Translations under genes and position numbers: made by a program
Part shown: positions 4,595-12,471 of the stretch, one piece after another
Layout of the letters: each line of letters begins with the position of its first letter
Position numbering within the stretch: the stretch's first letter is position 1
Source of the DNA: Macrococcoides bohemicum
Lineage (GTDB): Bacteria > Bacillota > Bacilli > Staphylococcales > Staphylococcaceae
Reading direction: 5' to 3'
Length of the DNA stretch: 64,000 bases
NCBI RefSeq assembly: GCF_003259675.1
Contig: NZ_PZJG01000002.1
Coordinates: 248,001 to 312,000, forward strand
Notes under the pieces: model-generated
What the model was told of the DNA's origin: nothing
The model's input: the letters and a program-made list of their open reading frames with translations, nothing else
The model's database searches: none

Positions 4595-5929
4595 TTACTT
4601 GATAATCAAAGTAACAAATACAGCCAGGATAACAAGCGGAATAATATAGCGCAACAAGAAAGCCCAAATTTTAAATAAACCTCGATATTTACCATCCATT
4701 AATTCATGCTTAGCAATTGCAGTATCTAGTTTGTAACCCGCAAATAACGCATAACATAATGCTCCAATCGGTAACATAATGTTCGAAACTAAGTAATCCA
4801 TATTATCAAAGAATGTTCCTGCTAAAAATTTCATTTGACTTAAAGTACCGTTCGATAATGCAGAAGGTACACATAAAATAAATAATAGTAATGCGATGAA
4901 ATATACATATTTTTTTCGTTTCTTTTGTTCGTGCTTAATTGCGTTCGAAACATTAATTTCAATTAATGAAATAGACGATGTAATAGTTGCAAAAAAGAAT
5001 AGCGATAAAAATATAAGATAAAAGATACTTCCAAACGGTAACTGATCGAATACATACGGTAAAACGATAAACAATAAACCAGGACCTTGTGCATTATCGA
5101 TGCCTAATGAAGCAGTTGCAGGAAATATTGCAAGTCCTGCAAGTATCGTAACCAGTATATTTAAACCGACAACAGAAAAGGCAGATTGAACAATGTCTGT
5201 CTTCTTATCTAAATAGGATGCATATGTTAACATGCCACCAAATCCTACTGAAAGCGAAAAGAATGATTGACCTAAAGCAAAAAGTACTCCTTCAGCATTC
5301 AGTGAATTAAAATCAGGTTTCAGAAAATATACAACGCCATCCATTGCATTTGGAAGCGTTAAAGAACGAATGATAATTACAATAAATGCAATAAACAACA
5401 TAGGCATCATTATTTTTGAAGCTTTTTCAATCCCATCCTGAATGCCACGGGAAACAATTATCGCAGTGAGAAAAATAAATAATGCAGCGCCAAGTATTGC
5501 ATATATCGGGTTACTAATCAGTTGACCAAATAATCCCTCGTAATTCTTCGTGTGTTGATTTGTAACTATTACATAAACAGTCCTCATCATATAAAGTAAA
5601 ATCCATCCACCAATCACACTGTAAAAACTAAGTAAGAAGAAAACACCGACATTACCTAGATGACCTATTAAATTATAATATTTATTACCTGTAATTTTTC
5701 TGAACACTTCTGTGCTATATGTCTTTCCGTGTTTACCTATTACGAATTCTGCTAACAATAAAGGCATACCTATAAATAATGTAAATATCATAAACAGTAC
5801 TAAAAACGCTGCACCACCATTATCAGCCATGACATACGGGAATTTCCACATCGCACCAAGTCCTATTGCCGAACCTGCACTTGCTAAAATAAATCCAATC
5901 TTCGATCCCCAAACAGATCTTTTTTCCAT
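4595..5929 (-). CDS. Sodium-dependent transporter of the NSS (SNF) family, probable tryptophan uptake
   Basis: 444 residues and about 11 predicted membrane helices. The N-terminus has the neurotransmitter:sodium symporter signature WGSKIGFILASAGSAIGLG followed by MWKFPYVMADNGGAAFL, where the unwound first helix holds Na+ and substrate. Such bacterial transporters take up amino acids with Na+; TnaT of Symbiobacterium, for example, is specific for tryptophan. The family alone does not fix the substrate here. However, the mRNA leader encodes a short peptide with two consecutive Trp codons followed by competing hairpins and two terminators, which points to tryptophan as the signal and so probably as the substrate. 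The gene is monocistronic; an ECF transporter starts beyond its promoter. Confidence 0.9.
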   Translation of the reverse strand: MEKRSVWGSKIGFILASAGSAIGLGAMWKFPYVMADNGGAAFLVLFMIFTLFIGMPLLLAEFVIGKHGKTYSTEVFRKITGNKYYNLIGHLGNVGVFFLLSFYSVIGGWILLYMMRTVYVIVTNQHTKNYEGLFGQLISNPIYAILGAALFIFLTAIIVSRGIQDGIEKASKIMMPMLFIAFIVIIIRSLTLPNAMDGVVYFLKPDFNSLNAEGVLFALGQSFFSLSVGFGGMLTYASYLDKKTDIVQSAFSVVGLNILVTILAGLAIFPATASLGIDNAQGPGLLFIVLPYVFDQLPFGSIFYLIFLSLFFFATITSSISLIEINVSNAIKHEQKKRKKYVYFIALLLFILCVPSALSNGTLSQMKFLAGTFFDNMDYLVSNIMLPIGALCYALFAGYKLDTAIAKHELMDGKYRGLFKIWAFLLRYIIPLVILAVFVTLIIK

Positions 5930-5962: not shown

Positions 5963-5995
5963 AAAAAAAGAGGCCAATGCATATGCATCGACCTC
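5963..5995 (-). terminator. Second leader terminator (T2) ahead of the NSS transporter
   Basis: On the minus strand GAGGTC pairs with GGCCTC and the interior GATGCAT pairs with ATGCATT, giving about 13 bp with almost no loop, followed by seven U (5969-5963). It lies some 35 bases before the NSS start codon and is a near copy of T1. Confidence 0.8.
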
Positions 5996-6030
5996 AAAAA
6001 AAGAGACCTTATGCATACGCAACCGGCCTC
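5996..6030 (-). terminator. First leader terminator (T1) ahead of the NSS transporter
   Basis: On the minus strand GAGGCC (6030-6025) pairs with GGTCTC (6008-6003), followed by seven U. Its 5' arm can instead pair with the upstream GGCTTC at about 6048-6043, which would act as an antiterminator. Confidence 0.7.
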
Positions 6031-6047
6031 AAGTAACGCGAATGAAG

Positions 6048-6075
6048 CCGTCATAGATACTTATATCTATGACGG
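6048..6075 (-). promoter_or_regulatory. Leader hairpin with alternative pairing to the end of the leader peptide ORF
   Basis: A perfect 12-bp stem (CCGTCATAGATA with TATCTATGACGG) and a 4-base loop follow the leader peptide stop codon. The segment overlapping the stop codon (about 6095-6082, GTCATAACTTATAT) can pair instead with the loop and 3' arm of this hairpin (ATATAAGT, ATC bulge, TATGAC). The two folds are mutually exclusive, as expected of a ribosome-controlled attenuator. Confidence 0.65.
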
Positions 6076-6088
6076 GCATAAATATAAG

Positions 6089-6145
6089 TTATGACAGCTG
6101 CCACCACATATTTAATTTTGTACTGTTCTGTACAAAAGTCTTCAT
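6089..6145 (-). CDS. Tandem-Trp leader peptide controlling the NSS transporter
   Basis: An 18-codon ORF encodes MKTFVQNSTKLNMWWQLS. It begins at ATG 6145-6143 with GAGG (6157-6154) eight bases upstream and ends with TAA at 6091-6089. It carries two consecutive Trp codons four and five codons before its end, a rare residue in so short a peptide. The ORF contains its own 8-bp hairpin (6116-6137). The arrangement of promoter, Shine-Dalgarno, Trp-rich mini-ORF, competing hairpins, terminator and transporter is the classic layout of amino-acid attenuation. Translation and function are inferred, not demonstrated. Confidence 0.8.
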   Translation of the reverse strand: MKTFVQNSTKLNMWWQLS

Positions 6146-6178
6146 TCTAATTACCTCGCTTGTTTAAGATTACTGATT

Positions 6179-6207
6179 ATTCTATCAGTATATTGATTAT
6201 GCGTCAA
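6179..6207 (-). promoter_or_regulatory. SigA promoter of the Trp-leader/NSS transcript
   Basis: A -35 TTGACG (6207-6202) and a -10 TAGAAT (6184-6179) are separated by exactly 17 bases. Transcription would start near 6172, some 20 bases before the leader peptide's ribosome binding site. Confidence 0.75.
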
Positions 6208-9045: not shown

Positions 9046-9075
9046 GAAAAATAGCCACACTAATACTGTGACTAT
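9046..9075 (-). terminator. Riboswitch-controlled terminator ahead of ykoE
   Basis: On the minus strand ATAGTCACA pairs with TGTGGCTAT around a 7-base loop, followed by five U. It directly follows the TPP aptamer, so TPP binding would favour termination. Confidence 0.75.
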
Positions 9076-9077
9076 AC

Positions 9078-9164
9078 ACTTCCCTACGCTAGTATCATCT
9101 AGATCAGGTTCAAAGGGTCTAAGGCTACAGCCTTATCTCAGTTTTTTTATAAAACACCCCTAGT
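9078..9164 (-). ncRNA. TPP riboswitch (THI element)
   Basis: The minus strand carries the hallmark sequence blocks of the thiamine pyrophosphate aptamer: ACTAGGGGTG at the 5' end, CTGAGA in the pyrimidine-sensing helix, then ACCTGATCTAGATGATACTA and GCGTAGGGAA. It lies between a SigA-type promoter and the ykoE expression terminator. Confidence 0.96.
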
Positions 9165-9188
9165 GCGCTTATTTAATTTGTTATTTTT

Positions 9189-12348: not shown

Positions 12349-12376
12349 TATGTTTAATTCTTACAACTAAATATTA

Positions 12377-12468
12377 CTTATCCAGAGTGGTGGAGGGACT
12401 GGCCCTATGAAGCCCAGCAACCTATTCAATTAGGTGCTAATTCCAGCAGGTGTAACCTGAAAGATGAG
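12377..12468 (+). ncRNA. SAM-I riboswitch (S-box)
   Basis: The aptamer shows the conserved blocks of the S-box: CTTATCCAGAGTGGTGGAGG at the 5' side, ACTGGCCCTATGAAGCCCAG, GCAACC, and the closing AGGTGCTAATTCC and GATGAG at the 3' side. It lies upstream of methionine biosynthesis genes and directly before a terminator. Confidence 0.97.
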
Positions 12469-12471
12469 CTT

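Follow-up and report, generated by a model that had tools for sequence, protein, structure and literature searches.

The E. coli trp operon attenuator carries a leader peptide, trpL, in which tandem Trp codons lie close to the stop, followed by competing hairpins and a U-tract terminator. Attenuators of the his-operon type are built from multiple hairpins that form an alternating relay. In E. coli tnaC, a Trp leader peptide is found beside a Trp permease gene, and this system is Rho-dependent and induced by free Trp. Leader-peptide attenuators have been predicted for his genes in Firmicutes (PMC9413887), and leader peptides replace T-boxes at Firmicutes hisS genes (PMC2965389). Leader-peptide attenuation is also known in staphylococci, at S. 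aureus ilvD (PMC5794164), and Trp, Phe and Leu T-boxes lie ahead of NSS genes in the B. cereus group (PMC2494555).

We analysed a 64,000-nucleotide stretch of DNA from Macrococcoides bohemicum (the window; contig NZ_PZJG01000002.1, positions 248,001 to 312,000), in which a leader of about 240 bases (6207-5963, minus strand) sits between an ECF-type transporter operon and an NSS gene. The best explanation, which we consider probable from the comparison of sequences, is that a ribosome-mediated transcription attenuator makes expression of an MhsT-like aromatic importer depend on how much charged tRNA-Trp is available, and that its sensor codons were swapped between lineages. The locus resembles E. 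coli trpL in its short peptide with tandem Trp codons near the stop, its competing hairpins and its U-tract terminator. It differs in that the target is a transporter gene in Firmicutes, that seven segments replace four, and that a free first segment would favour read-through here, whereas it favours termination in the E. coli trp attenuator. No sequence relation to that attenuator was detected, as the leader region had no Rfam match, and a T-box or another Rfam family was rejected as an explanation on the same result. E. coli tnaC shares a Trp-containing leader peptide adjoining a Trp permease gene; here, in contrast, the terminators are intrinsic and Trp probably represses. With the his type the locus shares the alternating hairpin relay, and the his leader peptides of Firmicutes carry runs of the regulatory codon, but the sensor codons here are aromatic and the target is an NSS gene. 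S. aureus ilvD belongs to the same bacterial family and its leader-peptide attenuation has mutational support, yet it senses Leu/Ile and controls biosynthesis (PMC5794164). The T-boxes of NSS genes act on the same gene family, with the same logic of aminoacyl-tRNA shortage and transcription read-through, but through another sensor, and no T-box above the Rfam threshold was present in this region of the window.

We found no description of such an attenuator for an NSS gene in the open-licence literature. The leader would add an amino-acid-specific leader-peptide attenuator to Gram-positives, where relatives use T-boxes, and it points to a likely aromatic or Trp substrate for a poorly annotated transporter in bacteria apparently unable to make tryptophan. 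The recoding of the sensor between lineages is unusual, and it offers a natural series, in which one RNA switch is combined with various sensor codons, that may be useful for learning how attenuators change specificity.

Organization of the leader

A sequence-only reading of this DNA had proposed a promoter, a GAGG, an 18-codon ORF, a 12-bp hairpin, an alternative pairing of the stop-codon region and two U-tract terminators, and all of these were located on the minus strand (Table 1). The complementarity that it had noted between GGCTTC and the 5' arm of T1 was likewise seen in the sequence. Its picture of the hairpins was revised: the helices are present, but they are arranged as a relay of seven segments whose arms can pair with either neighbour (S1:S2, S2:S3, S3:S4, S4:S5, S5:S6 and S6:S7). 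Intrinsic terminators lie between the leader and the structural gene. Upstream, the ECF-type transporter operon is headed by a TPP riboswitch (window 9064-9171, minus strand), and a SAM (S-box) riboswitch lies at 12375-12470 on the plus strand.

Table 1. Coordinates of the leader elements and the NSS gene in the window
Feature	Position	Strand	Description	Basis or conservation
Promoter	6179..6207	-	TTGACG-17-TAGAAT, TG before the -10	sequence
Shine-Dalgarno	6154..6157	-	GAGG, for the leader ORF	sequence
Leader ORF	6089..6145	-	MKTFVQNSTKLNMWWQLS-stop, 18 codons	WQLS-stop in 16/16 genomes, synonymous changes
Tandem Trp codons	6101..6106	-	TGG-TGG, -5/-4 from stop	Trp -4 16/16, Trp -5 10/16
S1	6077..6089	-	ACTTATATTTATG, overlaps stop codon; partner S2 (6071-6059)	9-15 pairs, 16/16 leaders
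S2:S3	6048..6075	-	perfect 12-bp hairpin, 6075-6064/6059-6048, loop TAAG	pairs kept in relatives
S3:S4, antiterminator	6024..6050	-	CGGCTTCA (6050-6043) : TGAGGCCG (6031-6024)	predicted helix
T1 = S4:S5	5996..6030	-	GAGGCC (6030-6025) : GGTCTC (6008-6003), then 7 T	
S5:S6	5990..6008	-	GGTCTC : GAGGTC	weakest link in window
T2 = S6:S7, terminator	5963..5995	-	5995-5985/5980-5970, then 7 T	
NSS/SNF transporter, MhsT-like	4595..5929	-	444 aa	PF00209, E 1.6e-53

When Trp is ample, the ribosome would reach the stop codon and cover S1, so that S2:S3 forms, followed by S4:S5 (T1) and S6:S7 (T2), and transcription would terminate. When Trp is short, the ribosome would stall on the Trp codons and leave S1 free; S1:S2, S3:S4 and S5:S6 would then form, with read-through into the importer. 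S5:S6 would counter T2 while S4 is held by S3:S4.

The folding energy of the leader strand was -89.4 kcal/mol against -51.7 kcal/mol for shuffled sequences (z = -8.9), and 0 of 200 shuffles were as good. The stacking energies in the window, from S1:S2 through S6:S7, were 16.4, 21.7, 16.3, 11.8, 6.2 and 21.1 kcal/mol, and the low value for S5:S6 compares with 10-23 kcal/mol in several relatives. A chain of competing helices matching that of the window was found in 0 of 300 shuffles for four helices, 2 for five and 8 for six, and such a chain is unlikely to arise by chance. In eight Macrococcus genomes (G012, G004, G002, G008, G013, G009, G011 and G010) none of 300 shuffles gave an equally strong six-helix chain, the program following a partly different path in G011. 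The longest chain that it found in G001 had four helices, and the best six-helix chain in G014 and G023 was weak or differed from the relay described here.

Two further features varied between genomes. The sequence-only reading had T1 as a terminator, in keeping with its seven-T tract in the window, but several relatives keep the pairing without a U-tract. This was the case for the S4:S5 hairpin in M. caseolyticum and in the lineage designated g7, where S4:S5 is therefore better seen as a link of the relay than as a terminator. Separately, the Shine-Dalgarno and start region of the leader (window 6159-6138) can pair with the tail of S3 (6046-6029) on the minus strand. This pairing had a mean of -14.6 kcal/mol within the same leader versus -10.9 kcal/mol across lineages; it was strong in some lineages and weak elsewhere (-6.5 in G023), and it was dropped as a general part of the switch.

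Conservation in Macrococcus and Macrococcoides

Every one of the 16 Macrococcus/Macrococcoides genomes searched had the leader ahead of the orthologous NSS gene (g1, 9/9; g2, 6/6; g4, 1/1). Among them were M. caseolyticum (G004, G005), Macrococcus epidermidis (G006), Macrococcoides goetzii (G007), M. bovicus, M. brunensis, M. carouselicus, M. equipercicus, M. hajekii and M. lamae (G009-G014, in that order) and Macrococcus sp. DPC7161 (G023). The leader of the window was 98% identical to those of M. goetzii and M. epidermidis, and the promoter, ORF and helices were found again in the 15 genomes besides its own. TTGAC(N)-17 with an extended -10 recurred in nearly all Macrococcoides relatives, and a Shine-Dalgarno sequence preceded every homologous leader.

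Absence of the mini-ORF, or of Trp codons in it, from relatives had been named as grounds for abandoning the attenuator, and the opposite was observed: the short ORF with Trp near its stop was kept in all 16 genomes. The peptide ended in WQLS-stop throughout, with Trp-Trp in ten leaders and a single Trp in six, where position -5 was Gly or Ser. In the genus Macrococcus, one Trp codon seems to suffice. Counted from the stop, Ser -1 was encoded by TCA, TCT or TCC and Gln -3 by CAG or CAA, and the stop itself was TAA, TGA or TAG. Leu -8 was retained through five different codons, and the N-terminal half of the peptide diverged freely. This codon-level pattern read from the stop makes it very probable that the leader ORF is translated and that amino-acid selection acts on its C-terminal part. 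The codon of Leu -2 was CTG in every leader, so part of the conservation lies at the RNA level.

The mutually exclusive helices were kept as well. Over 15 distinct sequences, 100% of the pairs of S2:S3 and S1:S2 were retained. S2:S3 had five variable pairs, all compatible and none changed on both sides, and S1:S2 had one change on both sides. An alignment of relatives had been suggested as a check for conserved Trp codons together with covarying stems; the codons were conserved, fully at -4 and in ten leaders at -5, but covariation was thin inside Macrococcus. Taken as a comparison across genomes, these data support the leader-attenuation reading well.

When the remaining 92 genomes of the family, g3 and g5 among them, were searched at the DNA level, no further copy of the leader was found. 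A covariance model gave none either in 157 genomes of the order, the model being too specific for the leaders of g6 and g7 (described below) at genome scale. In 400 genomes of the class it gave only two marginal matches (E about 0.03), one of which was the window's own site read on the opposite strand. Candidate relatives from a pattern scan (Caulobacter, Phenylobacterium, Paenibacillus, Clostridia and others) were dropped as chance, ten of them having been tested with no covariance-model match. The regions upstream of the NSS genes in g3 and g5 (L048-L051, L054-L061) had another conserved motif just before the start codon, CGCTTTAACGC..TAAAG or AAAGCTTTACCGCTTTAAAG.

Ribosome position and predicted switching

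The footprint of the ribosome was masked codon by codon together with the upstream RNA, and pairing of the GG of S3 with the CC of S4 was taken as the measure. Predicted S3:S4 pairing was maximal with the ribosome at -5/-4, the Trp positions, where it reached 1.00/1.00 in leaders with two Trp codons and 0.93-1.00/0.90-0.99 in those with one. With the ribosome at the stop, it fell to 0.27 in leaders with one Trp codon (0.64 when the footprint was set widest) versus 0.86-0.91 in the Trp-Trp leaders, and the contrast between Trp and stop was therefore weak in the latter at the S3:S4 stage. When the S5 arm was included in equilibrium folding of the M. caseolyticum group, S3:S4 was 0.76-0.92 with the ribosome at Trp, and S4:S5 was 0.94-0.98 with the ribosome at the stop.

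The window's own sequence behaved differently once T1 was complete: S4:S5 pairing was at least 0.98 in all ribosome states, Trp or stop. Since this equilibrium fold does not switch, switching in the window must be kinetic, that is, set by the order of folding during transcription. The proposal that a stall at Trp frees the antiterminator and that the stop position favours the terminator thus agreed with the S3:S4 peak and with the M. caseolyticum equilibrium, but not with T1 of the window at equilibrium.

Recoded leaders in related lineages

Orthologues of the NSS gene with 55-58% identity were found in two other lineages of the same order, g7 (probably Gemella) and g6, and a leader was upstream there too. 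The g7 leader (seven genomes; L146, L147, L159, L161, L164, L169 and L170) was MKILNLTKREYFFVPF-stop and variants, ending REYFFVPF-stop, or KEYFFVPF in one, with FF at the -5/-4 positions of WW. The g6 leader (one genome; L174) was MTHELVITTQFNYFWSYLQ-stop, ending NYFWSYLQ-stop. Both were followed by the same relay built from other sequences, and a six-helix relay as good was obtained in 0 of 300 shuffles in four genomes of other lineages (G110, G116, G111 and G108). At all seven g7 loci the best match of the Macrococcus covariance model fell on the leader (E 0.0023-0.18), which makes common descent of the Macrococcus and g7 RNAs likely. In g7, S1:S2 stayed intact with the ribosome up to the penultimate codon, and occupation of the last codon or the stop flipped the fold to S2:S3; in g6 (G108), S2:S3 outcompeted S1:S2 whatever the ribosome position. 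In these lineages Phe/Tyr or mixed aromatic codons would be read by the same relay, the sensor apparently having been exchanged and the RNA switch and target gene retained.

Transporter and tryptophan physiology

The NSS protein matched the SNF family, with an MhsT-like length and sequence, and MhsT (4us3) was its closest solved structure (E 3.2e-93, residues 4-440). MhsT carries Trp, Tyr, Phe, Val, Leu and Ile (PMC9350835). None of the 16 genomes with the leader had the gene for Trp synthase alpha, trpA (PF00290), and 91 of the 92 genomes of the family without the leader had it, an association that may reflect very few evolutionary events. Tests of four g6/g7 genomes and four f4 genomes showed trpA to be absent from all of the former and present in all of the latter. 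Phe synthesis was rejected as the factor that sorts the sensors, because g7, g6 and most Macrococcus all lacked prephenate dehydratase. G012 and G014 retained this enzyme (PF00800), unlike the other Macrococcus genomes tested. Elsewhere in the window's genome, T-boxes precede trpS, pheS and tyrS, the identity of these genes being taken from the protein starts.

Weighing alternative mechanisms

The invariance of WQLS-stop, with just synonymous changes at Gln, Ser and the stop, could also be expected if high free Trp made the peptide arrest the ribosome at or near the stop codon, as in TnaC. S1 would then be covered and transcription terminated, and at low Trp the ribosome would be released, S1:S2 would form and read-through would follow. 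The retention of Leu -8 beside a divergent N-terminal half fits such an arrest, as does the OFF helix that the fold scan yields when S1 is covered at the stop codon. A single Trp codon, with which six leaders manage, would be weak for a starvation sensor. On the other hand, TnaC has a Pro before its stop codon and WQLS-stop does not, the invariant CTG of Leu -2 may reflect pairing of CUGUC with GACGG of S3, and g7 has its tandem aromatics at precisely -5/-4, where the amino acid is another one and the tail differs (VPF), which is what a sensor based on codon stalling would predict. We regard the conserved WQLS-stop as only suggestive of TnaC-type arrest, and this mechanism as unlikely. The L and N before Trp and the QLS after it are conserved as amino acids, beyond what pure codon stalling needs, which leaves room for a nascent-peptide mechanism. 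A broader view, of a modular leader that is ancient in the order and joins one relay and one transporter family to recoded sensors, with the peptide possibly sensing as a nascent chain, is tentative and in our judgement rather doubtful.

Because the fold scans depend on ribosome position alone, a ribosome halted for whatever reason within the final few codons would leave S1 free, and the leader might report slowed translation in general, by antibiotics or general starvation for instance, instead of Trp. Aromatic sensor codons in all three lineages, which fit an MhsT-type transporter, and the lack of trpA in leader-bearing genomes make this very improbable. Still less credence is given to a leader that merely fixes a constant level of attenuation while the transporter is mainly regulated otherwise. 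The equilibrium folding of the window's T1, which predicts termination in every ribosome state, would agree with it, but mutually exclusive helices kept with different sequences in several lineages are hard to explain without switching. Attenuation by stalling at the Trp codons is thus the reading that we prefer.

NSS genes of other Bacilli

Upstream regions of 40 NSS genes of other Bacilli were inspected, 17 with Rfam and the rest by eye. T-boxes above the Rfam threshold were found in 8 of the 40, directly before the NSS homologues (L185, L188, L192, L197, L201, L204, L211 and L214). Four of them (L188, L201, L204 and L211) had the specifier region GAATTTC, which probably specifies Phe. Another group (f29 g41; L175, L176 and L178-L181) had no evident leader ORF or T-box upstream of its NSS genes. 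Besides a strong promoter, these regions carried a short terminator-like hairpin, AGGCTATTTGA..TCAAGTAGCCTTTTC, and could possibly represent another attenuator.
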